Assembly (NCBI RefSeq): GCF_014196915.1
Contig: NZ_JACIEP010000007.1
Span: forward strand, 1 to 64,000
DNA length: 64,000 nt
Reading direction: 5' to 3'
DNA from: Dysgonomonas hofstadii
GTDB lineage: Bacteria; Bacteroidota; Bacteroidia; Bacteroidales; Dysgonomonadaceae
The notes under the pieces are model-generated. The model did no database searches. It was not told where the DNA came from and saw nothing but the letters and a program-made list of their open reading frames with translations. Every line of letters starts with the position of its first letter. Positions within the stretch are counted from its first letter, which is position 1. The position numbers and the translations under genes were made by a program. Shown here piece after piece: positions 43,344-58,223 of the stretch.

Positions 43344-43459
43344 AAGTTTATCTATAGGATAAACAATGAGCTAATGTGGTAATATGCCGATGTGCCAATA
43401 TTTAAATGAAGAATGAAGAGAGTAAATTCTGTTACTTTTTAGTAAAAAACTAATGGTTT

Positions 43460-43525
43460 GTAGGGGTAGTGGCTTGTCTCTGCCCGTTTATTATATTTCG
43501 GGCAACCACAAGGGGGCGCCCCTAC
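43460..43525. repeat. Palindromic G-rich element
   Basis: Arms of 27 bases at 43460-43486 and 43499-43525 (GTAGGGG... / ...CCCCTAC, also TGCCCG/CGGGCA) surround a 12-base loop. The ends pair perfectly and the middle imperfectly. The style resembles the short palindromic repeats dispersed in bacterial intergenic DNA. Confidence 0.75.
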
Positions 43526-43544
43526 AGATAAACACTGCAAAAGC

Positions 43545-43600
43545 GTTACTTTCGTTACTTTTTTGTTAACTGATAACTGTTGACTGTTGACTGTTAACTG
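43545..43600 (-). repeat. Dispersed repeat, copy B
   Basis: Matches the reverse complement of 4684-4733 over about 31 contiguous bases, with one extra GTTGACT unit. The strand is given relative to copy A. Confidence 0.75.
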
Positions 43601-44054
43601 AATATTTTGTTACCTTTGTTATCATACTATGCAAAAAAATAGAATTCGATTGAATATCAATCAATAAGGAGGGTGAAAAAGAAGAATAGGTAACGATTTA
43701 GAAACCACCAGACCACCTTATTCTACTTTACTTTTCATCGATTCAAATAACTCTTTTTACAAAATTAAATACATTTCTTGAAATACAAATACTTTTCATT
43801 CAAAAATGTTCGCATCCTCAATTCTGATATAAATAAAGTATTAATCTTATATTGAAGTCAACTTATATGGCTATTCAACAAATAAGCTACGAGCATGAAG
43901 CAATAGCTTTATTTTCAAGTTCGCTACTTAAAACTATATACTTAAGTACAAGGCTTTAGCTTCTAAAAATGTTTTAAATTTTATCTTTGTAAGATTTATG
44001 GAAAATAACTGATTTGTGTGGAATAAGAAAAAATATAAGTGCGTACCCGAAGAA

Positions 44055-46397
44055 TTACCTGAAGTCTACAGCTTTCATCACTCTGAATTTATCCTCATTT
44101 TCACTTCTTATGCTTAATGTGACAGACTCCCATTGGGGCACCCAACCTCCACATATATCGGCAAGTCTAATCATTCTGAATTTATGATAACCCTTGGCCA
44201 ATGCTATTGATTTATCGTTATTCGAATTCCTTTTAACAAAACCTTCGTTACTAATCAAGAGTTTATCATTAATCCAAAACTGATCGCAATTGGTACTGAA
44301 ATAATACACAGCGTCAATAGGAATGGTAATATAGCCTTCTACAATAACACTTCGGGCATTTCCCTCCGTCAGTAAGCTGTTGTTTTTTATTCTGTCTTTC
44401 AATAGTTGAGGTTCCTCTATAATTTCCTCTAAGACAGGAATTTTTGCAAAAAGATTATCTACCTTATTTTCAAAACCTGTATAGTATTTCACTTTTAATC
44501 CTCTATAGTCAGGAGTTTTTTCTATAGAAGGGATAAAATCCTGTTTTTCGATATGAATAGTCCTAACTTCCCCCAATTTACCTAAAAGTAATAGCGAACG
44601 AACCTTTAAGGTTTTTGTTTCATCAAATATCAGAGGAGTTTTGTACACTGCCGATTTATCATTGGGCTCCGTTCCATCTGTTGTATAGAGTATTGTAACC
44701 GGTTCTGTTGTACAAAGGTCCAAAATAATATTAGTATTAAATGCAACAAAATTAGCAGATGGTACATTTTTTTGCTCAGGAAGAGGAATATAGTAATTCA
44801 CCTTGTGCATATCTAATCTCACTCTCTGATTATCCAGCCTTCTTAAAAATTCTTTATAGTTTTTATTATCGGGCTTGCTCCATGCCACTTCGGCCAAAGC
44901 TATTAAACGTGGATAAGTGTACCATTCAAATAAATCCTCAGTTGGAATGTATTCAGCCCAAGTAGCAGCTTGTGTCCCTAGTATTTGATTATGTTTTGAT
45001 ACATCAAGACTTTCCGGAACCGGATCCAAAGAATAAGTCTTTTCGAGTGGTACATAACGAGGAGGGGCTGGTGGTAGTAATTTGGCATCTCCCTGCGGCT
45101 GATCTAAATATACATAAGGTCTGGGTGACATTATCACATTATTTCCTAAATTAGCCGCTTCAATACCTTTTTCCAATCCTCTCCAACTCATAACCGTAGC
45201 AGAAGGGGATAAGTTACCATCCACCATTTCCTCCCAACCAATTATCTTTTTTCCTGATCGTGCAAGATAACTTTCTATTCGCCCCATAAAATAGCTTTGC
45301 AATTTATTTTCGGCCGACGCTTTTTTATCAGATACAAGTTTCAATTCTTTCATTTTCAGCTGGCATTTAGGGCATCTTTCCCATTGATACTTATCGGCTT
45401 CGTCGCCACCTAAATGAATAAAATTACTCTCGAAGAGTGGAAGTATTTCGTCTAGTATGTCTTCAATAAAGGTATATGTTTGTTCATTCCCCGCACAAAA
45501 AATATCAGAAGATATTCCCCATACATTCCTCACGCTATGTGGCCCTCCTGTACAGGAGTATTCGGGATATGCCGCAACTGCCGCGACAGCATGTCCCGGC
45601 ATATCAATCTCGGGAATAACCTCTATAAAGCGTTTTTTTGCATAGGCTACGATTTCTTTTATATCCTCTTGCGTATAATAATATGGGCCATATATAGTTC
45701 CGTCATGTTCTTTTCGTTGCGAACCGATTTTTGTAAGATCCGGGTATTTCTTTATTTCTACTCTCCAACCCTGATCGTCAGTCAAATGCCAGTGAAGTCT
45801 ATTTATCTTTAGCATTGCCATTATATCCAATTGCTTTTTTATAAAATCGACACTCCAGAAATGCCTGCCCGAATCAACTAGGAAACCACGATATGCAAAT
45901 CGGGGTTCATCGCGTATTTCTACCGAAGGTATTTTCCATTGTATGTTTTTTTGCAAATCGGGGCTTTCTATCTCAGCCGGTAATAACTGTATCATTGTTT
46001 GCATTGCATAAAATATGCCGGCCATATCACTTGCTTTTATATTAACGACTTTGTTATCCGATTTCAGCAAATATCCTTCCTGTTTTAAATTAAGATTTTC
46101 ATCTATAGTTATTCTTATTTGATTTTGCTTTTCAATACTTACGATAGGGATATCCAGACCTGTTGGATTCTTAATCTTCATTGCGAACAATCCGGCAATT
46201 CTTTGCAATTCGTCAGATTGTGTATTAATGTATATTGTCGTTTTTTCATTCAAACTGAAGAATCCTTCACTAACTGTAAGTTCGGACGGAACAGGCGTGA
46301 TATTGATGCCTGTGTTATATCTCTTTTCCGACTCTTGTCCTGTAACACCGACTGTTAATAATAAACCAAACAATATTGAGAGACTATATCTAAGCAT
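44055..46397 (-). CDS. Family 20 beta-N-acetylhexosaminidase
   Basis: A 780-residue secreted enzyme with a signal peptide (about 1-20, no lipobox). A GH20b domain (about 30-150) precedes the GH20 catalytic barrel, with the catalytic pair Asp342-Glu343 in HLGGDEADK. After the barrel a chitobiase C-terminal-type segment (about 570-620, TILYTTDGTEPND) and a PA14-like beta module (about 640-765) follow. It removes terminal beta-GlcNAc or GalNAc by substrate-assisted hydrolysis. It is the last gene of the sigma/SusCD locus, 20 bases after the GlpT-like permease, and is the only glycoside hydrolase there. Confidence 0.92.
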   Translation of the reverse strand: MLRYSLSILFGLLLTVGVTGQESEKRYNTGINITPVPSELTVSEGFFSLNEKTTIYINTQSDELQRIAGLFAMKIKNPTGLDIPIVSIEKQNQIRITIDENLNLKQEGYLLKSDNKVVNIKASDMAGIFYAMQTMIQLLPAEIESPDLQKNIQWKIPSVEIRDEPRFAYRGFLVDSGRHFWSVDFIKKQLDIMAMLKINRLHWHLTDDQGWRVEIKKYPDLTKIGSQRKEHDGTIYGPYYYTQEDIKEIVAYAKKRFIEVIPEIDMPGHAVAAVAAYPEYSCTGGPHSVRNVWGISSDIFCAGNEQTYTFIEDILDEILPLFESNFIHLGGDEADKYQWERCPKCQLKMKELKLVSDKKASAENKLQSYFMGRIESYLARSGKKIIGWEEMVDGNLSPSATVMSWRGLEKGIEAANLGNNVIMSPRPYVYLDQPQGDAKLLPPAPPRYVPLEKTYSLDPVPESLDVSKHNQILGTQAATWAEYIPTEDLFEWYTYPRLIALAEVAWSKPDNKNYKEFLRRLDNQRVRLDMHKVNYYIPLPEQKNVPSANFVAFNTNIILDLCTTEPVTILYTTDGTEPNDKSAVYKTPLIFDETKTLKVRSLLLLGKLGEVRTIHIEKQDFIPSIEKTPDYRGLKVKYYTGFENKVDNLFAKIPVLEEIIEEPQLLKDRIKNNSLLTEGNARSVIVEGYITIPIDAVYYFSTNCDQFWINDKLLISNEGFVKRNSNNDKSIALAKGYHKFRMIRLADICGGWVPQWESVTLSIRSENEDKFRVMKAVDFR

Positions 46398-46417
46398 TTA
46401 TTCTATGTTTTTTTAAT

Positions 46418-47797
46418 TTAAGACTTCTTTTTCTTCCATACCAGAAGGATTAAAGAGAAGGAGATAATGGATGCTGTAATCCAAAATATGGAGGCATAAT
46501 CGAAATTATATACAGTAGTTCCGTTCTCTACACTCTTTCCCGAATCGATGAACCATCCACTTACAATATCCTGTATCCCGGCTCCCACATAACTGGCTAT
46601 TCCAACAATACCTAAAGCTGCTCCGCTCGCATTGCGGGGAACAATATCTACGGCCATCAGCCCTCCCAGAAAACATATAAGTACACCAATGGCTATTCCG
46701 AAAAGTACCATACTGAGTATATTTATGTAGATATTATTACCGGAATATAGGAAGAGGCATAAAGAAAAAGTATTCAATATGCCAAACAGAAGCGCAGGCA
46801 AATTACGATTCCCTTTGAAGAGCTTATCCGATATCCAACCCGAAAAAATAGTTCCGAATATTCCAAGCAAGGCATTTATAGATATTATCTGTGTTGCTGT
46901 TCCCAGCGAAAAGCCTTTCGATTCCTGAAGAAATAGTACTCCCCATCCATTGATCGCATATCTGCTAATGTACATAAATGCACTAAATAGGGCTAATATC
47001 CATACCCAGGGGTTTCTTAATACTGCTTTTTGCACATCCTTGGTACCTCCTTTATTATCAGTGGGGGCGATCTTTTCGTTGGTTAATACTTCTACGGTTG
47101 GCAGACCTTTACTCTGTGGAGTGTCGTGCAAGAAGAGTATAATAATCAGAACTCCTAGTATTCCTGCAACAGAAGAGCCTATAAATCCCCATTGCCAACC
47201 GCACAAGCCAACAATAGTTCCCACAAAAATAAAGGAAAGAAACTCTCCCAGATTATGGCTGGCACTAAAGAAGCCATAGTAGGTTCCTCGTTCTTTGATT
47301 GGGTACCATCGCGAAAGAGATATAATGGCAGGAGCAGCACCCATTGATTGGCTCCACCCGTTAATACCCCACATAATGGCAAATGCAATAAAAAAAATAA
47401 AACTGGAAAACCCTATGGTCGAAGATTCGGCCAACCCCAGTATTCCTACTATCAAATTAGCTAAAGTAGAAATAATGAGACCGGTAGCCATAAAACGTTT
47501 TATGTTGCTATGATCGGCAAGAAAGCCATTAATAAATTTTCCGATGGCGTAAGAGAATAATAAGACAGAACCAATAATACCCAATTGACTGGCGTTTAAT
47601 GTCCCATTTTCGAGAATAGGTTGTTTGACTACATTGAGGCTTGTGCGACAAACATAATAGAGGCTATATCCTACCGTAGCTGCAAAAAAACTAGAAAACC
47701 GCAGTCTTTTATATTTCCGTTGCTGTTCATCTTCGGTAATTGACTCAAGCTTTACCGGACTGCTTATTTTATAGAATGAAATGATTTTTTTGAACAT
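46418..47797 (-). CDS. GlpT-like organophosphate MFS transporter
   Basis: A 459-residue inner-membrane permease of the OPA branch of the MFS (GlpT, UhpT). Twelve hydrophobic segments are visible. YYVCR (Arg51) at the end of helix 1 corresponds to the phosphate-binding Arg of GlpT. SASHNLGE (His181) corresponds to its conserved His165, and KERGTYYGFF is the OPA signature. It probably exchanges an organophosphate such as sn-glycerol-3-phosphate for phosphate. It sits between a glycerophosphodiesterase and GH20 with gaps of about 20 bases, which strongly suggests glycerol-3-phosphate as cargo. Confidence 0.88.
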   Translation of the reverse strand: MFKKIISFYKISSPVKLESITEDEQQRKYKRLRFSSFFAATVGYSLYYVCRTSLNVVKQPILENGTLNASQLGIIGSVLLFSYAIGKFINGFLADHSNIKRFMATGLIISTLANLIVGILGLAESSTIGFSSFIFFIAFAIMWGINGWSQSMGAAPAIISLSRWYPIKERGTYYGFFSASHNLGEFLSFIFVGTIVGLCGWQWGFIGSSVAGILGVLIIILFLHDTPQSKGLPTVEVLTNEKIAPTDNKGGTKDVQKAVLRNPWVWILALFSAFMYISRYAINGWGVLFLQESKGFSLGTATQIISINALLGIFGTIFSGWISDKLFKGNRNLPALLFGILNTFSLCLFLYSGNNIYINILSMVLFGIAIGVLICFLGGLMAVDIVPRNASGAALGIVGIASYVGAGIQDIVSGWFIDSGKSVENGTTVYNFDYASIFWITASIISFSLILLVWKKKKS

Positions 47798-47818
47798 AAT
47801 GATGTATTCGAATCTGAA

Positions 47819-48757
47819 TCAATGATGTAGATTGCGTTTTTGCAGATAGTTAATCAGATATTGAGGACGATCCGTTTGTATGATTCTGGCACCTAACGAA
47901 TCAATCAGATAGCCATAACCTTGATCAGGACTAACTAAAGACATATCATCGTCATGCCCTCCAGCCATTGTATCCCATAGGGTATTGTACCAGATGAGCG
48001 ATTTGCCACTTAAGGTTTTCATCACTTCTTTAGGTAGGGGATTAGTATCTTTTTTGTATAACAACTCAAAGGCTACAGGAGGCATTTTCTTTATAAAATC
48101 ATTTATTATAGTTTCGCTATTTTCGTTATCGAGGCTGACTATCGGCATGTATATAATTTCATTTAAATATTTGCTAAATTGAGCTTGCACCGTTTCATAT
48201 GGCTTACTCCCTTTCATTATTATCTGCCGTTCCGTTCCAGTCTTTTTCAATAGCTCGTACACTTCGTCAAAATAGCGGTCGGCTTTGTCCAGATTGAGAA
48301 AGATCCTCCCTTTAGCAAATAAAAGAGCTTCTTCCAGTGTTGGTACCATTTCTTTGGTTCTTGCAGCACAACCATTTCTTAATTTTAATGTTTTGATGGA
48401 ATCCAGTGTCCACTCTTCTACTTTACCTTTTCCGGTAGTTGTACGATCTAATGTAGCATCATGCATCAGTATAAGGTGCCCGTCTTTGGTCCGCTGTATA
48501 TCAAGCTCTACTACGTCAACTCCCATTTTGATACAATTTTCTATTGCAGGCAATGAGTTCTCCATTGCATAGCGCCAGTCGCCACGATGTGCTACAACGA
48601 TTACTTTGTTCAGATTGGGATTCATCAGTTCGGCTCTTATTGCTTCTGTGTCTCTTATTATTGAGGATGTAGACGATGTTGTAGAAGGTGCGCAGGCTGC
48701 AAATATATACAGAAAACAAGCGATGGAAATTGCGTTGAAATTTAGTATTTTTTTCAT
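47819..48757 (-). CDS. Glycerophosphodiester phosphodiesterase lipoprotein
   Basis: A 312-residue GDPD with lipobox FAAC (Cys22). The TIM-barrel active site is complete: His57-Arg58-Gly59 (VVAHRGD), Glu66 in AMENS, Glu84 and Asp86 in VVELDI, and His99-Asp100 (ILMHD). The family cleaves glycerophosphodiesters to sn-glycerol-3-phosphate and an alcohol. It is 100 bases downstream of a second, PKD-fused GDPD and 21 bases upstream of the GlpT-like permease, so its product could feed the permease directly. The longest frame starts 14 codons upstream, but the signal sequence begins at the ATG ending at 48757. Confidence 0.92.
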   Translation of the reverse strand: MKKILNFNAISIACFLYIFAACAPSTTSSTSSIIRDTEAIRAELMNPNLNKVIVVAHRGDWRYAMENSLPAIENCIKMGVDVVELDIQRTKDGHLILMHDATLDRTTTGKGKVEEWTLDSIKTLKLRNGCAARTKEMVPTLEEALLFAKGRIFLNLDKADRYFDEVYELLKKTGTERQIIMKGSKPYETVQAQFSKYLNEIIYMPIVSLDNENSETIINDFIKKMPPVAFELLYKKDTNPLPKEVMKTLSGKSLIWYNTLWDTMAGGHDDDMSLVSPDQGYGYLIDSLGARIIQTDRPQYLINYLQKRNLHH

Positions 48758-48857
48758 AATAGTGATATAATTTGCTCCTAGCCGATAATTGATATTCATT
48801 GACCAGGAGCAAACTGAATATTTTGTTACAAAATGTTTAATATAAGAATAGCTGAAT

Positions 48858-50000
48858 CTAATTCACATATTCGTTAACTAACTCAGCATAATCTGTTTGG
48901 ATGATTTTAATTTTCTTGTTTACCAGATTATCCAGTTTAGAATAATCGCCATTCAGCATATCCAGGTCATCCTGTTCAAGATGGTTGCTAAACGAAGGTA
49001 CTCCTTTTACCAAAGCAGCATTAATGAGACTAGACTCAGTATCGGGAGCTAATTGTACCAGTTTTGCAACAGACCAGTTGGATAAATCACCTGTTGAACT
49101 GATCCATGGAAATAGTAAAGAGTTTTTGTTAGCACTGATAAAGTCATTCCCGACAGCCTGATTACGTGCGATATAGAAAACTACACGATCCATCATATAA
49201 GTATCTTCTATCATTTTTACCAGCCGTTTGGTATCTTCCGCTGTCCATCCGTCCGATAGCATTGCCCCCAAGTCTATGTTGTAATATATTTTTCCACGTC
49301 CGGATTCCAGTGCTTCTTTCAGGGTAGGGACTTTATGTTCTGTTACGTTGCCTGCATTGTCTTTCAGCGAAAGGCTTTTTATCTGTAGCAGTGACAATGC
49401 CGATACATTCCCTGTTCCGTTGGTAGTTCTGTTGACACTCTTATCGTGCATTATTACAAACTCTTTGTCGAAGGTAATCCTAATATCAATTTCTATCATT
49501 TGCACCTTTTGTTTAATTGCAGTCTCAATCGCTTTTAACGAGTTTTCGGGAGCCATGTTCGCTCCATTTGTGAGCCCCTTGTGAGTATTTGCCCGGTGGG
49601 CGCATATCCAGAATTTATTACTTTGTACAAGCTTTGTAAGTTCTACAGGGAGTTTCTCTCCCATCACCTGAATATTGATCGAACTTTCAATTATCGCTCC
49701 TCTATCATTCGTAATTTTTACTTTTACAGGATGAGTTCCATTTTGGTCATAAGTCAGTTTAATCTCTTTTTTGTCGCTTATGATCTCTCCATCTACTGTC
49801 CATACAGCAGTGCTTTCTCCTTGTACCGAATAAGAGAGAGTAATCTCCTCATTAATACAGGGAAAAGGGTTGCTCGCTTTTATAATCGACTCCTCTGGAT
49901 TAGGATCGACATTCGAATTACCCCCCCAATCGTCATATTCTGTTTTACTGCAACTCAGAAGAGCTATCAGTGCCAATAAGTAAATGTGTATGTATTTCAT
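48858..50000 (-). CDS. PKD-GDPD fusion lipoprotein
   Basis: A 380-residue lipoprotein with lipobox LLSC (Cys17) followed by an acidic EYDDW stretch typical of surface-exported Bacteroidetes lipoproteins. A PKD-like Ig domain (about 38-115) precedes a GDPD barrel (about 125-380). The active site is a variant: His135-Arg136-Ala137-Asn138 instead of HRG, then Glu152, Glu170, Asp172 and His185. The Ala/Asn change and the long insertion before APENS suggest a different substrate from the neighbouring GDPD. It is likely cell-surface exposed, handing fragments to SusCD. Confidence 0.88.
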   Translation of the reverse strand: MKYIHIYLLALIALLSCSKTEYDDWGGNSNVDPNPEESIIKASNPFPCINEEITLSYSVQGESTAVWTVDGEIISDKKEIKLTYDQNGTHPVKVKITNDRGAIIESSINIQVMGEKLPVELTKLVQSNKFWICAHRANTHKGLTNGANMAPENSLKAIETAIKQKVQMIEIDIRITFDKEFVIMHDKSVNRTTNGTGNVSALSLLQIKSLSLKDNAGNVTEHKVPTLKEALESGRGKIYYNIDLGAMLSDGWTAEDTKRLVKMIEDTYMMDRVVFYIARNQAVGNDFISANKNSLLFPWISSTGDLSNWSVAKLVQLAPDTESSLINAALVKGVPSFSNHLEQDDLDMLNGDYSKLDNLVNKKIKIIQTDYAELVNEYVN

Positions 50001-50022
50001 CTTCGTTTATTTTTAGAAAAAA

Positions 50023-51660
50023 TTAATTAGGCTGTCTATTAGTGCGTTGAGCATTTTGTCCTCTCATTGGCCATACCGAGTTGGCTGGGCCTGTGACAGA
50101 TTTATGCTTAAGAGAGAGTAAAACACTTTCTCTCTTGTCGTTTTCCATGTTTGTCACGCCTATATAGATTGTTCCATCGGAGTCAATAACCGGAGAATTC
50201 CAGCATTTGGTTTGTCCTACAGCCCATTTAGCAGCTATCTCAGGATATTTTCTTATTATCAATTCTGCCAGATCTGATAAGAATATTTCCGTTGTGCCAT
50301 CTGAGGATAAGATGTAGTATTGCCCGCCATCTGTAGCAAAATGGATATTACCGGCCTGATCTATAGCCGGAGTGCCCGATACATCTTGAGGTATACCATA
50401 ACGCCAGCGAATGCTGCCGTCCGGGTTTACAGCAACTATTCCTCCTCCTTCTGTCCCAACAGCACGTTTCAGCCCACTATATATAGTACCATCTGCCCCG
50501 ATGGCTACTCCTCCCTGATCGACTGAGCCTACCGATTCCAGTGCGCAATACCATTTTGCCTTTGGCCATTCTTCGGTAGCGTTGCCGTCTAATGCGAAAA
50601 TAACTTTACCAACAGTTTTAAAGTTTGCCAGCCCATATATTGTTCCATCACTGCCGATAGCCATTGCTGAATTGATACTTTCTTCTCCTGCATATGTATA
50701 AAATCGCCAGTCCCAATTTACTCTGGCATCTATTTCCATTTTACTGGCAGAAGCCCTGAAAAGCCCATAGATTCCGCCTTGCCAAAACAGGCGGTTCTTA
50801 TTGTCAAGCAATACCCCCGACGACACTCCTCCTCCCGGACCACCGTTACTATTATTAGCTACATAAGCTTTTCTATATCCTGTAGTTTTATCGATAGCCA
50901 GTACCGATCCGGTAGTTCCTCCGTTGCCGATGTATATAGAGTTATCTCCAATAGCGGCATTCAAGTGGTTAATCTTAGGGTTTGGAGTTCCTGAAGCAGC
51001 CCAAAAGCCATTATCTCCATACGGAACCATCCATTTTTTTGTTCCGTCACTGTTTATTGCATAAAAACGGCCATTTGTTCCATTGCCCGTACCCATATAA
51101 ATTGTACCATCGGTATCTATAGATGGCACCGCAAGGGTTGCTCCTGTAGGTAATGTGCCGTCGGCAGGATTCCACAAATTAAATTCCCACATTTGGCTGC
51201 CATCCACTTTCGAAAACTTACGAAGTATATTATCAGCAGAGGCTATGACAACATTTCCCTGAAGGTCTACGGCCGGAGATGTAGCCTGTATGTAACCAAA
51301 GGTTTTTCCTGACAGCCAATTAATATCTATCTCGCCTACACTTCTGGCTGGTTGGTCGATGTTAATCAGTCGTTTATGTTCTGATGTTCCTCCCTCCCCG
51401 GAGACTGTTAGTTTGATTGTATAGCCTCCCGGTTCGGTATATACTACTATCGGACTTGCTTCGGTCGACGTTTGTCCGTCGCCAAAGTGCCAGGTATAAG
51501 ATACCCCCTCCCCGTTACTCTTATTGTTCATTTTAATCTCGTCGCCTGCAAAGTAAGACGAACGAGCTGTGTCGAATAGGGCATAAGGAGGCTCATCGGA
51601 TGAGCTACAAGCAGCCAGCAATACAATGGTTGTGCAATAGATTATATATTTTATTTTCAT
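50023..51660 (-). CDS. PKD and PQQ-propeller surface lipoprotein
   Basis: A 545-residue lipoprotein with lipobox LAAC (Cys18). A PKD domain (about 25-105, YTWHFGDGQTS) is followed by a BamB/PQQ-like beta-propeller with repeated DGTIYxG units (for example SDGTIYIG and ADGTIYSG). It occupies the place where SusE/SusF glycan-binding lipoproteins normally sit, directly after SusD. I infer substrate capture at the surface. It has no evident catalytic residues, so a quinoprotein enzyme activity is unlikely. The spacing of 24 and 22 bases to its neighbours indicates one operon. Confidence 0.82.
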   Translation of the reverse strand: MKIKYIIYCTTIVLLAACSSSDEPPYALFDTARSSYFAGDEIKMNNKSNGEGVSYTWHFGDGQTSTEASPIVVYTEPGGYTIKLTVSGEGGTSEHKRLINIDQPARSVGEIDINWLSGKTFGYIQATSPAVDLQGNVVIASADNILRKFSKVDGSQMWEFNLWNPADGTLPTGATLAVPSIDTDGTIYMGTGNGTNGRFYAINSDGTKKWMVPYGDNGFWAASGTPNPKINHLNAAIGDNSIYIGNGGTTGSVLAIDKTTGYRKAYVANNSNGGPGGGVSSGVLLDNKNRLFWQGGIYGLFRASASKMEIDARVNWDWRFYTYAGEESINSAMAIGSDGTIYGLANFKTVGKVIFALDGNATEEWPKAKWYCALESVGSVDQGGVAIGADGTIYSGLKRAVGTEGGGIVAVNPDGSIRWRYGIPQDVSGTPAIDQAGNIHFATDGGQYYILSSDGTTEIFLSDLAELIIRKYPEIAAKWAVGQTKCWNSPVIDSDGTIYIGVTNMENDKRESVLLSLKHKSVTGPANSVWPMRGQNAQRTNRQPN

Positions 51661-51684
51661 GTCTTTTTAGTTTTAATAATGAGT

Positions 51685-53043
51685 TTATTTTGCCCCGGCA
51701 TAACCCGGATTTTGTGGATATGCTGTTGTACCTGCCAAATCAATCTCATTTTGAGGTATCGGATAGTACATCAGATAATTCCGCCCGTTAAGGGTCTTAA
51801 GCAGATCGAGCCTTCCTGTTCGTTTTATATCGAACCACCAGTATCCTTCTCCATAAAATTCACGATGCCGCTCATCTAAAATCAAATCCTGAAAGTCTGA
51901 TTCGGATAAGGCTTGAATAGCAGCGTTTGTAGGGACGTTATCGTAGCGTTTTTGTAAAAAAGCAAGCAATATATCCGCTCCGTCAACCGGACCCAGAAGT
52001 TCGGCTTTTATCAAATACATTTCGGCAATACGGCTAATCACAATAGGGGTATTAGCTTGATCGGGCGTTGGAACCAGTTGCTGCCCACTAATTCCGTTGG
52101 GGAACTTGATGACACGTTTATCATCACTACTGAATGTTGCTTTTGCCCTTCTATCCCCTTTCCTGTTTAATATGTTATCGTCGGCAAATAGAGATTGGAA
52201 AACATCTGTTGCGGGGGAATAATCCCATGTGGGGTCAACATCATTCAGTTTTTGAGAAAAAACCAATTGCCCTGTAGAACGTTTATTGGCAAGTCCGAAG
52301 ATTGTTTCTTTACTTTTTGCATCTGTAACATATATACTTGCAAATTCTTCGGAAGTATTGGCTAAAATGAAGTTGTTGTTTAACAAAACTGCATTCACAT
52401 TCTCTAAAACTTTAGTTTTGTTTCCCCTGGCTAAATAGATACGTGCAGCCAGTGCCTGTGCAGCTTCTAACGAGACATAATAACTATTGGTGAAGCCTTG
52501 AAGTATGGATAGCGCTTTTTCTATGTTACCTTCAGTAAACGCCCATACATTTTCTTCCTGCGAGATAGGAACGAGGTTCTCGTTTTGTTTGTCCAATATT
52601 GGAACATTGCCCCACCTGATAGCCATATCATAATAGATAAGAGCTCTGAAGAAATAGCCTGTTCCGCCTATTTGTTTTTCCTTAGCTGTAGGTGCACCCG
52701 AAAGAGCCTCGTATGATTCTATTAATGCATTTACCTGATTGAGAACTACAAACGATGTTTGCCAGCGGTTTTTTATGTCGCCATCACCAGGTGTCATCAT
52801 CACCGGATCTGTAAGTACCCAACCGGGGCCTTCCTTATAGTTCTCGGCCTTATAATCGAAATCGAACCATCCGTTAAACTGTTGTCTTTCTATTTCGGCA
52901 TAGACACCTGTCATCAATTTTTCGATATCGTCTGCCGTCATCTCGTCAAGAGGGATAGCATTTCTTGGCAACATCTTGTCCAATTGCGATTCACAACCTG
53001 TTATTGCCAGTAGTAGAGTTAGGAATATAATTATCTTTTTCAT
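51685..53043 (-). CDS. SusD/RagB family nutrient-binding lipoprotein
   Basis: A 452-residue lipoprotein with lipobox ITGC (Cys17). The helical SusD fold is supported by the TPR-like N-terminal two thirds (FRALIYYDMAIRWGNVPI) and the C-terminal FYGEGYWWFDIKRTGRL and YYPIPQNEIDL blocks, which are the family hallmark. It forms the lid of the SusC transporter on the cell surface. It is 15 bases downstream of SusC. The length is slightly short for a SusD, and the ligand cannot be read from the sequence. Confidence 0.93.
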   Translation of the reverse strand: MKKIIIFLTLLLAITGCESQLDKMLPRNAIPLDEMTADDIEKLMTGVYAEIERQQFNGWFDFDYKAENYKEGPGWVLTDPVMMTPGDGDIKNRWQTSFVVLNQVNALIESYEALSGAPTAKEKQIGGTGYFFRALIYYDMAIRWGNVPILDKQNENLVPISQEENVWAFTEGNIEKALSILQGFTNSYYVSLEAAQALAARIYLARGNKTKVLENVNAVLLNNNFILANTSEEFASIYVTDAKSKETIFGLANKRSTGQLVFSQKLNDVDPTWDYSPATDVFQSLFADDNILNRKGDRRAKATFSSDDKRVIKFPNGISGQQLVPTPDQANTPIVISRIAEMYLIKAELLGPVDGADILLAFLQKRYDNVPTNAAIQALSESDFQDLILDERHREFYGEGYWWFDIKRTGRLDLLKTLNGRNYLMYYPIPQNEIDLAGTTAYPQNPGYAGAK

Positions 53044-53058
53044 ATTATCATTTGAGAT

Positions 53059-56000
53059 TTAGAAGTTAACATTTAAACCGAATATAATATTCTTCAACGT
53101 AGGCAGTTCTCCATAGTCTACGCCATAATTAGCACTGCTGGGTTGCGATGCGTAGGAGAACTCGGGGTCGTAACCTGAATAGGAGGTAATTGTAAAAAAG
53201 TTATCGAGCGAAGCATATATTTTTGCTCTGCTAAGTCCGATTTTCTTCATTAGCGAAGTTGGAAGATTGTATGCTAATGTTATTGTCTTAAACTTGAAAT
53301 AGCTTGCATTTTCGAGATAACGGGTAGATGTTTGTGTATTATAATCTCCAGCATATCCTGTATGAACGCCTCTCATTACCGGACGAGGTACTGAATTGGT
53401 CGTTCCCGGACCTCTCCAGTAATCTGTAGCCATCTCTTTGGATACATTGTAAAACTGATTGCCCGAAACGGCAACACCTAGGTGATCAGTCCCTTCGGTT
53501 CCACCACCTCCACGCCATGCCGGCATAATTTTTCCTCCTGCGCTAAACTGAGTAAATACAGCCAGTTCGAAATTTTTCCAACTCATAGTAGAGGTTATTC
53601 CTCCAAAAAAATCGGGATTGGCTTTTCCTACATATACCCTGTCATTATCATCTATGTCGCCATCTTTATTATGATCGATATATCTGACATCTCCAGCTCT
53701 TACTCCTTTTGCATACAATGCAGCCGGTACATCCGAATCGTATTGATAAATTCCGCCCATTTCGAGCATATAATACGAACCTATGGCTTTACCATTTATC
53801 AGTGCACTTTTTTGCCCTCCAAAGTTGACACCGCTACTACCCAATATAATCATGTCTTGTCCATCGAGTAATTTTCTCAAACGGTTGCCTATGAAGGATA
53901 TATTACCGCTCAGATTCCATTTAAAGTCGCCGGTCAGAATGTCTCCGCCTATAGCCAGTTCCAATCCTCTGTTGTCGAGTTCCCCTATATTTCCTGTCAG
54001 CGAAGTATAGCCGGTAGTAGCCAAGGTAGGGCGTCCATACAAGAGGTCGGTAGTACGGTTGTAGAATAAGTCCACTGTAAAGTTAATCCTGCTATTTAGA
54101 AATTCTGCATCAACACCTACATTAAACTGCGTAGCCTTTTCCCATTCCAGATGTTGTGCCATTTGAGATATTTTAAAGCCCGGGTCGTTATTGTAAGAAT
54201 TTCCTCCGGCTGTTACCAGCGAGTGTGGTATATAGTTGCCGATACCTGACTGGCTTCCTGTACGCCCCCAACTAAGGCGCATCTTCAACTCGTTCATTAC
54301 TTTAGTCTTCGGGATAAAATTTTCTTCTGATACTCTCCATGCAAAAGATGCTGAAGGGAATGTACCATATCTGGCATTTTTGGAGAATCGTGAAGAGCCG
54401 TCTCTTCTGATTGCGCCTGTTAGTATATATTTATTCTTATAATTGAGTGTGAGCCGGGACAGATAAGAGTCTAAAGTATACTGATTAAATCCTATTGAAC
54501 CTTTATAAATGTTATTGGATGCAGCCAGAGAGTTAAATCCGTCGGAAGGGAAGCCGTCTCCATAATTATCACTTTTTGCCCCAAATGTCTCATATTTATA
54601 TTGTTCGAAAGAGTGACCGACCAGAGCGGTATACCTCAAATCTTTCCATTCGCCATCATACGAAAACATGTTGTCGACAACATATCTTACACTAAAGTCT
54701 TTTTGTTGTGTTAATGCCGCCCAATCTGCATGGTTTTTTCGGGCGTCATGTTTTTCTGATATTTTCTTTTTGACCTGATCCAGTATTCCGTATACATTAC
54801 CAGTTACTGCATATTTAAATCCGGCAAAGGGTGTAAAGTCAATGCCAAGATTGGCCACAACCTGAGTTTTATCTACAGTCCAGTCTTCTTCGTTTACAAG
54901 CATTACCGGGTTGTGACGTATAATTTGGTCTTCTCCGTTTACTTTGTAACTTCCGTCTTCGTTGTACGGGCTATACCACGGTTGTTCTTCTCTGGCCGTA
55001 CGGATGATTTTCAAGCTGGAATCACTATCTTCTACCTGAGAGAACCGGCTATGTGTCCCAGACATATTAAGCCGGACATTGAACATCCTGTTTATCTTGT
55101 GAGAAAATTTTGCTCTTAGACTATATTGGTCGTAATCACTTTTCCGCACTGCACCTTCCTGCATAGTATATCCTAATGATGTGTAGAAAGACGTGGCTTC
55201 ATTACCTCCCGATAGAGATACATTGTGAGCTGTTTGGTATGCGGGACGACGATATATTTCTTTCAGCCAGTCTGTTTCTTCAATCACATCGGGAACAAAG
55301 AATTCGTTGTTTGTCCTCATTTGTACATTGTAATTGTCCACAGCAGTTTGCATTACCCGCTTATACTCATCTACATTGGCCATTTTGATATCATGAGCAA
55401 TATATCCTACTCCAAAACGTCCGTTATAGTCTACTTTTGTTTTGCCCGATTTACCACTTTTAGTCGTAATTATGACAACTCCGCTATTTGCTCTGGAACC
55501 ATAAATGGCAGCAGATGAGGCGTCTTTCAAAATATCCATTTGTTCTATGTCGTTTGGGTTTATTACGGGCATAGACTCGCTCGGTATCCCATCTACTACA
55601 TACAAAGGACCATTGCTGCCTGAAATGGAACTCGTTCCCCGGATAAGGATATTAGGCATACTTCCCGGTTTACCCGATGCGGAAGATACATTGACCCCTG
55701 CAACACGTCCTTGCAGCATTTTTACTGCATTATAGTCTGCACCCTGATCCACATCGTCTACTTTCATGTGACCGATAGATGTAGTAACTAGTTTCTTAGA
55801 CTGTGAACCGTAGCCTACAACAATGACTTCATCCAGTACTGTTTGATTTTCTTCCAGTATTATTTTTATTTCTGTTTGATTATATATCTTCGTTTCCTTA
55901 GGATTATATCCAACATAGGTAATTGATAACGTAGATTGCTTATCAACAGATAAGAGGGAGAATCGCCCATCGACATCAGTAAATGTACCATATGTAGTTC

Positions 56001-56415
56001 CTTTGACAGAAACACTGGCTCCTATAATGGGCTGCCCATGCACATCCAAAACGACTCCTCCTATGTTTACTTTTTCTTTAGGAGTCGGATCAGATGTTTT
56101 TTTCTTATCGAAAATAACTATTGATGTTTCAGATACAATATTAAAGTTGAGATTGCGACTAGCAAAAGCAGATGACAATACGAATGATACGTCTACTTTT
56201 TTCAATGAAATATTAATATCTCTTTTGTCGTCTAATACTACATTCCGGTACGCAAACCTGTATGTAGTTTGTTTTTCGATAGTAGAGAACAATTCTTTTA
56301 AGGTTGCATTTTTGAGTTCTACTGTTACTTTTTGTTCTTGGGCATATGCATTTGCATTACTTATGACCAACAATAATAAAACAAGTAGAATATGCCTTGT
56401 TTTAGCTAATTTCAT
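53059..56415 (-). CDS. SusC/RagA TonB-dependent outer membrane transporter
   Basis: A 1118-residue TonB-dependent transporter. The order is signal peptide (about 1-25), STN secretin/TonB domain (about 28-105), carboxypeptidase-like regulatory domain (about 112-190), TonB box region DEVIVVGYG near 193-201, plug and 22-strand barrel. The C-terminus ends in a Phe-containing final strand (GLNVNF). The STN domain is the sensor that contacts a FecR anti-sigma factor, so the transporter also signals substrate availability to the sigma/FecR pair upstream. It pairs with SusD downstream. Confidence 0.95.
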   Translation of the reverse strand: MKLAKTRHILLVLLLLVISNANAYAQEQKVTVELKNATLKELFSTIEKQTTYRFAYRNVVLDDKRDINISLKKVDVSFVLSSAFASRNLNFNIVSETSIVIFDKKKTSDPTPKEKVNIGGVVLDVHGQPIIGASVSVKGTTYGTFTDVDGRFSLLSVDKQSTLSITYVGYNPKETKIYNQTEIKIILEENQTVLDEVIVVGYGSQSKKLVTTSIGHMKVDDVDQGADYNAVKMLQGRVAGVNVSSASGKPGSMPNILIRGTSSISGSNGPLYVVDGIPSESMPVINPNDIEQMDILKDASSAAIYGSRANSGVVIITTKSGKSGKTKVDYNGRFGVGYIAHDIKMANVDEYKRVMQTAVDNYNVQMRTNNEFFVPDVIEETDWLKEIYRRPAYQTAHNVSLSGGNEATSFYTSLGYTMQEGAVRKSDYDQYSLRAKFSHKINRMFNVRLNMSGTHSRFSQVEDSDSSLKIIRTAREEQPWYSPYNEDGSYKVNGEDQIIRHNPVMLVNEEDWTVDKTQVVANLGIDFTPFAGFKYAVTGNVYGILDQVKKKISEKHDARKNHADWAALTQQKDFSVRYVVDNMFSYDGEWKDLRYTALVGHSFEQYKYETFGAKSDNYGDGFPSDGFNSLAASNNIYKGSIGFNQYTLDSYLSRLTLNYKNKYILTGAIRRDGSSRFSKNARYGTFPSASFAWRVSEENFIPKTKVMNELKMRLSWGRTGSQSGIGNYIPHSLVTAGGNSYNNDPGFKISQMAQHLEWEKATQFNVGVDAEFLNSRINFTVDLFYNRTTDLLYGRPTLATTGYTSLTGNIGELDNRGLELAIGGDILTGDFKWNLSGNISFIGNRLRKLLDGQDMIILGSSGVNFGGQKSALINGKAIGSYYMLEMGGIYQYDSDVPAALYAKGVRAGDVRYIDHNKDGDIDDNDRVYVGKANPDFFGGITSTMSWKNFELAVFTQFSAGGKIMPAWRGGGGTEGTDHLGVAVSGNQFYNVSKEMATDYWRGPGTTNSVPRPVMRGVHTGYAGDYNTQTSTRYLENASYFKFKTITLAYNLPTSLMKKIGLSRAKIYASLDNFFTITSYSGYDPEFSYASQPSSANYGVDYGELPTLKNIIFGLNVNF

Positions 56416-56571
56416 AATTAATCATAGAAATTTAAAGGTTAATAATTTATTCACTTATATCAACGTCGATTGTATATAAAGACAGTGGTTACGGAATGAA
56501 GTACCGAAACAAAAGTGTGTTGTAAAACATGTTTTTCGTAATGCTACATGAAAGAAACTCTAATAAAATGA

Positions 56572-56598
56572 GGCATGATACTGTAAATATACCATGCC
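56572..56598 (-). terminator. Hairpin between fecR-like and susC-like genes
   Basis: A stem of GGCATG/CATGCC plus TATA with a bulge, on the minus strand, lies between the two genes and is followed by a weak T-rich stretch. It may act as a terminator or attenuator separating the regulator pair from the transport genes. Confidence 0.45.
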
Positions 56599-56619
56599 CT
56601 TATTTTGATTATGGACATT

Positions 56620-57591
56620 TTATTTGTCAGTGAAACTTATTTCCCGGCCTTTGATTGTGTAATTCAGATGATATGATAGACTTATAATTTCTAATGCTTC
56701 GAGGAGGTTGTCTCCTACTATTACGCCCGAAAATAAATCGTTATTCATTTTAGTTCTTAGATTTAAGGAAATGCTGACTCCGTAATTTTCTTCAATAGTT
56801 TGGAGTACATCCTGCAAGCGGGCATTCTCGAATAAAAGTTTTTTCGATTTCCAGATTGATGCATTTTGTGGGTTCTCCTCTGTCGTTATATTAATTTCTC
56901 CAGTCAAGCGATTGAATATTCCTTTTTGCTTAGGGTGTAGTTCTTTTTCTTCTTTGAAAGATGATAGCAATACATGTCCTTCCTCTAATACCAGTTCTAC
57001 GGTTTTACTTTTTTCCCGGGCATATAAATTAAATTTAGTTCCGAGTACCTTTATTTTCATATCGTCTACTGCTATTATGAAAGGCTGATCTTGCTTTTTT
57101 GTAACATCGAAATACGCTTCTCCCTCAAATGATATCTTTCTTTCTTTCTTACCATAAGCCTGAGGTGCATACCGTAGCTGTGACTCTGAATTTAGTGCGA
57201 CTTTTGTCCCATCTGGCAAAACTATATTTGCCCTTTCTCCCTTTGTTGTAGATACGATCATTTCTTGTTCTGCAAGACTCTTGTTTTCATAATAAAGATA
57301 GCCTGTAGCCAGCAACAATACAGGTATCAGGATGGATGCAGCAACCTGCATTATTCTACGGAATGGTAGTACTCTTTTTTGAGTAGGATAAATATTTCTA
57401 TTTACTTTGTGTTTTATTTCTCTAAGTTGTTCTTCGGATACAACATCTTCATCGATAGAATCATGAAGCCAACTTTCATACATAATATCTTCTAATTTCG
57501 AATCGGGTAGATTATTTACAATATTCCTCAGTTCTTCCAGTTCTTCCGAGTTTATATTGTTTTGTTTATATTTTGTTTCCAGTTTTTTCAT
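56620..57591 (-). CDS. FecR family anti-sigma factor
   Basis: A 323-residue transmembrane regulator. The cytoplasmic N-terminus (1-90) contains an anti-sigma-like helical region (DIMYESWLHD). A single membrane span at about 91-112 is followed by a periplasmic FecR domain (about 130-225, STTKGERANIVLPDGTKVALNSES and EGEAYFDV) and a C-terminal STN-like domain (about 245-315). It transmits the signal from the SusC STN domain to the sigma factor. It is 32 bases downstream of the sigma gene. Confidence 0.94.
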   Translation of the reverse strand: MKKLETKYKQNNINSEELEELRNIVNNLPDSKLEDIMYESWLHDSIDEDVVSEEQLREIKHKVNRNIYPTQKRVLPFRRIMQVAASILIPVLLLATGYLYYENKSLAEQEMIVSTTKGERANIVLPDGTKVALNSESQLRYAPQAYGKKERKISFEGEAYFDVTKKQDQPFIIAVDDMKIKVLGTKFNLYAREKSKTVELVLEEGHVLLSSFKEEKELHPKQKGIFNRLTGEINITTEENPQNASIWKSKKLLFENARLQDVLQTIEENYGVSISLNLRTKMNNDLFSGVIVGDNLLEALEIISLSYHLNYTIKGREISFTDK

Positions 57592-57623
57592 AACAAGATG
57601 TATAATAATGTATGACAGCTTTT

Positions 57624-58223
57624 CTATAAATCTGTACCGATGGACAGTATATTTTTAACAATTAATAAGACTATAGTCCAAGGCAAATGTTTTTGTAGTT
57701 CTTGTTGCAAAGCTTTTAGTCCTATAGATAATTGATTCTTAATTGTTTGCTCTTTCAACTGTAACTTATCAGCAATCTCCTGATTGGAGTACTGCTTCAG
57801 CTTACTATATTCTATTACTTTTCGCTGAGTTTCGGGTAAAGCCTTCAGGGCATTTTCTAATAAGCGACAGAAATCATCGTACTCTATGGCATGATGTGTA
57901 TTGTCTATGGAAAGCTTCTTCTCATTATAGAAATCCACATAAGTTTCGAAGGAAAATGAATTCAGATTTGACTTGTATTTATTAATAAGCTGAAATTTTG
58001 CTATTTTAAAGATTAGAGATCGGAGTGTATCTGTCTGTATAATTTTCTCTTTATTTTGCCATAATTTTATAAATACATCCTGCATTATTTCTTCAGAGTC
58101 CTCTCTCGATTTTGTATATTGCATACAATAGCCATAGAGACGAGCTCCATACAAGTCGTATATCTTGTCAAAAGCCGCTTCTGATCCTTCTTTTAGCTGG
58201 GATATTAATTCTTTCTCTCCCAT
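57624..58223 (-). CDS. ECF sigma-70 factor
   Basis: A 199-residue ECF sigma factor. Region 2 is in the N-terminal half (FDKIYDLYGARLYGYCMQYTKSREDSEEIMQDVFIKLWQ shows the -10 recognition helix). Region 4 with its helix-turn-helix is at about 120-175 (YSNQEIADKLQLKEQTIKNQL). It belongs to the FecR-linked ECF group of Bacteroidetes. The hydrophobic C-terminal tail (TIVLLIVKNIL) is typical of the group. It starts the nine-gene locus and probably activates the susC promoter when substrate is sensed. Confidence 0.94.
   Translation of the reverse strand: MGEKELISQLKEGSEAAFDKIYDLYGARLYGYCMQYTKSREDSEEIMQDVFIKLWQNKEKIIQTDTLRSLIFKIAKFQLINKYKSNLNSFSFETYVDFYNEKKLSIDNTHHAIEYDDFCRLLENALKALPETQRKVIEYSKLKQYSNQEIADKLQLKEQTIKNQLSIGLKALQQELQKHLPWTIVLLIVKNILSIGTDL

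Follow-up and report, generated by a model that had tools for sequence, protein, structure and literature searches.

A Sus-type locus of Dysgonomonas hofstadii that joins two GDPD-family phosphodiesterases and a GlpT-group permease to GH20: a probable system for glycosylated glycerophosphodiesters

The closest published concept for the locus considered here is the PusCD phosphate-utilisation system of Flavobacterium, in which SusCD pairs stand beside phosphodiesterases and phosphatases, some of them with ECF/FecR regulators, and have been interpreted as systems for lipid headgroups and nucleic acids (PMC8115612). The GDPD fold is also found in GlpQ of Bacillus subtilis, an exo-acting enzyme that releases glycerol-3-phosphate from wall teichoic acid made of unmodified poly-glycerophosphate and comes to a halt where a unit is glycosylated (PMC7086022). 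A partial literature search found no relevant paper on a polysaccharide utilisation locus (PUL) directed at teichoic acid or centred on GDPD, and no paper on the DUF4996 domain that accompanies one of the GDPDs described below.

The window, that is, the whole stretch of DNA that was analysed, comprises 64,000 nucleotides (positions 1-64,000, forward strand) of contig NZ_JACIEP010000007.1 from the Dysgonomonas hofstadii assembly GCF_014196915.1, a genome of 5.04 Mb in 44 contigs, and all coordinates are those of the window. The nine minus-strand genes named in the preliminary description match open reading frames exactly, and Pfam and NCBIfam domains agree with the identities proposed for them. 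The features are as follows.

57624..58223, minus strand: ECF sigma factor of the Bacteroidetes family TIGR02985 (Pfam/NCBIfam)
56620..57591, minus strand: FecR-type anti-sigma factor (FecR and FecR_C domains)
56571..56599, minus strand: terminator-like hairpin of 11 pairs between FecR and SusC, followed by a T-rich stretch (pattern match only)
53059..56415, minus strand: SusC/RagA TonB-dependent transporter with STN signalling domain (TIGR04056, 876 bits)
51685..53043, minus strand: SusD lipoprotein (SusD domain)
50023..51660, minus strand: PKD and PQQ beta-propeller lipoprotein, a putative surface binding protein (domains, anchor residues)
48858..50000, minus strand: GDPD2, lipoprotein with a weak PKD-like domain and a GDPD domain (domains, catalytic residues)
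47819..48757 (open reading frame to 48799), minus strand: GDPD1, with GDPD and DUF4996 domains (domains, catalytic residues)
46418..47797, minus strand: organophosphate:phosphate antiporter of the GlpT group, within the GlpT/UhpT/PgtP group of the MFS (NCBIfam, alignment to 1pw4)
44055..46397, minus strand: GH20 beta-N-acetylhexosaminidase with CHB_HEX_C and PA14 domains and a plain signal peptide (domains)

From the sigma factor to GH20 the intergenic gaps measure 32, 204 (FecR-SusC), 15, 24, 22, 58, 21 and 20 bp, values that correct the earlier wording of gaps "mostly 15-32 bases". Operons for ECF/FecR-controlled transporters usually consist of a regulator unit and a separate transporter unit, and here the 204-bp gap with its terminator-like hairpin (56599-56571, in a sequence whose total hairpin number is about that expected after shuffling) suggests that sigma/FecR and SusC-to-GH20 are probably two transcription units. 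The tight run thus consists of seven genes, SusC-SusD-PQQ-GDPD2-GDPD1-GlpT-GH20, and because GH20 belongs to it, the original characterisation of the locus as built around phosphodiesterases "instead of glycoside hydrolases" was too strong. The STN domain of SusC scores weakly on the whole protein and at E 4.5e-6 on the N-terminal piece alone. Downstream of GH20 lies a long gene-free spacer (43344-44054) with repeated sequence of the AACAGTCAACAGTTATCAGTTAACA type. The flanking genes were considered as wall-related partners and set aside, being on the other strand or separated from the run: MltG on the plus strand, with Bac_transf, Rce1-like and AmiA-like genes farther away, and a queuosine synthase gene on the other side.

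The grouping of these genes is not a matter of chance, since two of the four GDPDs in the genome and the only GlpT-group permease detected in it share a single run with one of 57 SusD-like genes, and since the linkage recurs elsewhere. The genome also encodes six GH20 proteins, one NAGPA phosphodiester glycosidase and one GlpD-type glycerol-3-phosphate dehydrogenase.

Both phosphodiesterases belong to the GDPD family by virtue of a TIM-barrel GDPD domain and of the catalytic set His-Arg, Glu, Glu-x-Asp and His (HR..E..ExD..H), which is retained in the alignment of each. The family profile of GDPD1 finds structure 3i10, from B. thetaiotaomicron, at E 1e-122; the start of GDPD1 is probably at 48757, where the signal peptide begins, and not at 48799. 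The predicted structure of GDPD2 (mean pLDDT 85) has 3i10 as its top match and also matches B. subtilis GlpQ with glycerol-3-phosphate (5t9b) and the GP-PDE domains of staphylococcal phages. Acidic residues after the lipid-anchor cysteine mark surface export in Bacteroidota. The residues in that position are SKTEYDD in GDPD2, SSSDEP in the PQQ lipoprotein and the neutral APSTTS in GDPD1, on which grounds GDPD2 is probably a surface phosphodiesterase, the PQQ lipoprotein is read as a surface protein and GDPD1 is probably periplasmic. In the permease, the site residues R, K, H and R of E. coli GlpT (1pw4) are all aligned and kept; the protein scores 211.9 bits against the NCBIfam glpT equivalog, whose cut-off is 632.55, and is therefore placed in the same group and not called GlpT itself. 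The nearest solved structure to the GH20 protein is 6q63, a general beta-hexosaminidase.

A gene order unique to this genome, with GDPD genes unlinked to SusCD elsewhere, was among the conditions that the preliminary description had set for its own refutation, and the search for such cases did not refute it, with linkage found in Bacteroides, Alistipes, Muribaculaceae, Maribellus and rumen Paludibacteraceae. A first genome scan yielded 79 GDPD/DUF4996 loci, and the comparison was widened to 95 (individual loci are designated by L numbers). Among these 95, which are not a random sample because they were gathered by GDPD similarity, the partners found in the same run were a GlpT-group permease in 42, SusD in 45, SusC in 39 and a PQQ-type lipoprotein in 17. 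In an even sample taken across the order, 7 of 13 convincing DUF4996 sites, the focal locus included, lie in SusCD operons, as compared to a rough background of 11% derived from SusD density (binomial P ~2e-4). Almost the same arrangement, SusC-SusD-GDPD-PQQ-GDPD-permease, is seen at L044, from the same genus, and at L170, from a different family of the order.

In loci of Alistipes, Cryptobacteroides and Muribaculaceae, the slot of the surface enzyme is occupied by a lipoprotein of the MBL fold in which an HxHxDH motif is invariant. This family takes the place of GDPD2 in L104, L106-L108, L112, L115, L117, L118, L121-L123, L134, L138, L139 and L142. No PDB sequence match was obtained for it, and its structural model (pLDDT 69.5) resembles a generic MBL-fold hydrolase, with UlaG-like proteins, YhfI and NAPE-PLD among the matches at modest TM-scores; because the fold comparison is so generic, a phosphodiesterase activity for this lipoprotein would be only a guess. 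Two stretches of Bacteroides DNA, one from B. stercorirosoris (NZ_FQZN01000019.1; L120/L162) and one from B. cellulosilyticus (L128), each carry at least four GDPD genes together with SusCD, an esterase and lectin-like proteins.

GDPD-linked SusD proteins are polyphyletic overall in a tree of 91 rows, and the other loci therefore need not share the substrate of the focal one. The focal SusD is 47% identical to that of L106 and pairs with it; the sister group of these two comprises L109 and a clade of Dysgonomonadaceae SusD proteins, a grouping supported by an SH-aLRT of 99 in the 91-row tree and by values of 99/99 in a more careful tree of 33 rows. An NAGPA gene adjoins SusD in all eight of the sister-clade loci sampled, which were chosen by SusD similarity alone in a family-level search, and in none of the six loci with the next-closest SusD (L189-L194, one of them incomplete). 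The sister-clade copy in the D. hofstadii genome itself (L166; contig 10, 146000-165900) reads FecR-SusC-SusD-NAGPA-BACON lipoprotein-alkaline phosphatase-GH20, and a gene for a GH29 fucosidase lies there on the other strand. L109 likewise carries NAGPA and GH20. An order-wide SusD search at E 1e-25, in which few candidates were scored per genome, returned only the focal protein and this same-genome copy. L166 thus represents a Sus-type locus built around NAGPA that is conserved in Dysgonomonadaceae and of which we found no description.

Around the core of GDPD and permease, the sugar enzymes vary from locus to locus: among the GDPD-linked loci, GH20 is confined to two (the focal one and L109), GH3 is found in L106 and L052, GH65 in L086 and L144-L158, GH92 in L046, GH125 in L049/L050 and GH2 in L089, while L092 and L094 (B. 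heparinolyticus and B. neonati) consist only of sigma/FecR-SusCD-GDPD-GlpT and have no glycosidase. Phosphoesterases of the EEP or calcineurin type, or an alkaline phosphatase, accompany the GDPD in some loci. A constant GDPD-permease pair with a changing glycosidase favours a glycerophosphodiester with variable sugar decoration as the substrate. Kojibiose occurs on some lipoteichoic acids. The top PDB match of the GH65 proteins of L086/L144-L158 is 7fe3 (E 3e-197), which we take to be FjGH65A. FjGH65A is an alpha-1,2-glucosidase (PMC8626586). The rumen loci L144-L158 (Paludibacteraceae/Bacteroidales), which contain SusD, an EEP and beta-helix protein, GH65, a Gfo/Idh oxidoreductase, GDPD, a GlpT-group permease and a GDSL lipase/esterase, look like a distinct glycosyl-phosphodiester system.

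Taken together, we consider the focal locus to be a substrate-sensing Sus-type system for glycosylated glycerophosphodiesters that would yield glycerol-3-phosphate and HexNAc, a reading to which we assign a probability of about 0.62; as a class of mechanism, glycerophosphodiester uptake with release of glycerol-3-phosphate has good support from gene content and from the related loci. The PKD-PQQ lipoprotein and SusD, to judge by their families and anchor sequences, would bind the substrate at the cell surface, where GDPD2, with its GDPD fold and catalytic residues, would cut it, and SusC with TonB, as in the family to which it belongs, would import the oligomers. Within the periplasm, GH20 would strip beta-HexNAc before GDPD1 releases glycerol-3-phosphate, an order suggested by GlpQ, whose stalling at glycosylated units gives a reason to pair a hexosaminidase with a GDPD. 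The GlpT-group permease, which keeps the site residues, would then exchange phosphate for the incoming glycerol-3-phosphate, and a GlpD-type dehydrogenase is there to use it. The architecture of SusC-STN, FecR and ECF factor suggests that the transport operon may be induced on arrival of the substrate.

The preliminary description had the locus harvesting a glycerophosphate polymer, and gene content and the NAGPA of the sister clade uphold its elements of SusCD uptake, glycerophosphodiester cleavage, glycerol-3-phosphate uptake and HexNAc removal; they do not carry over to the identity of the polymer. Teichoic acid is a plausible candidate, compatible with the action of GlpQ on poly-glycerophosphate, and poly-glycerophosphate teichoic acid with beta-GlcNAc is our leading single candidate for the natural substrate, a tentative choice held at less than even odds. 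Slightly more doubtful again is the broader proposal that Bacteroidota possess a locus specialised in feeding on the (lipo)teichoic acid of Gram-positive bacteria around them, belonging to a set directed at their poly-glycerophosphate in which interchangeable GH20, GH3 and GH65 (alpha-1,2-glucosidase type) match the sugar decorations. Some related loci have GH92 or GH125 and others have no glycosidase. The former, being equipped with mannosidases, do not suggest teichoic acid, and mannosylated phosphodiesters fit them better; the existence of the latter keeps deacylated phospholipids among the candidates.

Scavenging of phosphate and carbon from deacylated phospholipid headgroups (glycerophosphocholine, -ethanolamine, -glycerol or -inositol) in the manner of PusCD, with GH20 as an accessory only, would account for the minimal SusCD-GDPD-GlpT loci and has the Flavobacterium clusters as its precedent. 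We nevertheless regard it as rather unlikely for the focal locus, where the presence of two surface lipoproteins and, apart from these, of a GDPD in the periplasm speaks for a polymeric or oligomeric substrate, and where sugar-cleaving enzymes are found both in the locus itself (GH20) and beside its closest SusCD relatives (GH3 in L106; NAGPA and GH20 in L109 and L166). That same NAGPA in the sister clade can be taken to point to phosphodiester-bearing eukaryotic glycans, whether GPI-type, phosphomannan or other modified glycoproteins, from which the phosphodiesterases would serve to unmask the glycan. The alpha-mannosidases of GH92 or GH125 in the GDPD-linked L046 and L049/L050, an M60 peptidase gene past GlpT in the same-genus locus L044, and the resemblance of the focal GH20 to a Bacteroides-type glycan enzyme are in keeping with such substrates, but no gene for a mannosidase, sialidase, fucosidase or peptidase is found in the focal locus, and its GlpT-group permease suggests that the product is free glycerol-3-phosphate, which makes this explanation improbable. 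Least credible by a wide measure is an ordinary HexNAc-glycan locus (for N-glycan or mucin) into which GDPD genes have drifted: GH20 is indeed common, with six in the genome, but it is the GDPD-permease pair that recurs across lineages and the glycosidase that is the changing part.

If our reading of glycosylated glycerophosphodiesters is true, the Sus paradigm would cover phosphodiester-linked glycans in addition to ordinary ones, and gut-type Bacteroidota could draw carbon and phosphorus from Gram-positive walls or from phospholipid debris. Related loci are present in the cultured species B. stercorirosoris, B. cellulosilyticus and B. heparinolyticus and, by report, in B. thetaiotaomicron, where BT4724-BT4727 appear as SusC, SusD and GDPD in the gene list of an iron-stimulon table (PMC10434189) and, as far as that list goes, are alike in having SusCD near GDPD.

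With GlpQ (PMC7086022), the focal GDPDs have fold and catalytic residues in common, and the same release of glycerol-3-phosphate is predicted for them; GlpQ trims its own cell's wall, whereas the focal enzymes would act on foreign material. The PusCD clusters of Flavobacterium, PUSI-PUSIV and others, likewise place SusCD beside periplasmic phosphodiesterases and phosphatases, some include an ECF sigma factor or FecR and inner-membrane organophosphate transporters as the focal locus does, and PusD is polyphyletic like the GDPD-linked SusD (PMC8115612). The phosphodiesterases of PUSI are listed under the metallophosphoesterase type (pf00149, pf16670) and not as GDPDs, and PUS loci are reported to be induced by phosphate depletion and to have no PUL CAZymes (PMC8115612), so that the focal locus agrees with them in its linked phosphodiesterases (two GDPDs) and organophosphate transporter and departs from them in its GH20. 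In gene content it has the features of a Sus-type PUL, namely adjacent susC and susD, a linked CAZyme (GH20) and linked regulators (ECF, FecR, STN), and it has the SusCD tandem, surface lipoproteins, GH20 and ECF/FecR/STN in common with Sus-type PULs under ECF/FecR control, from which it differs by its phosphodiesterase core enzymes and by a permease of the organophosphate-antiporter group.
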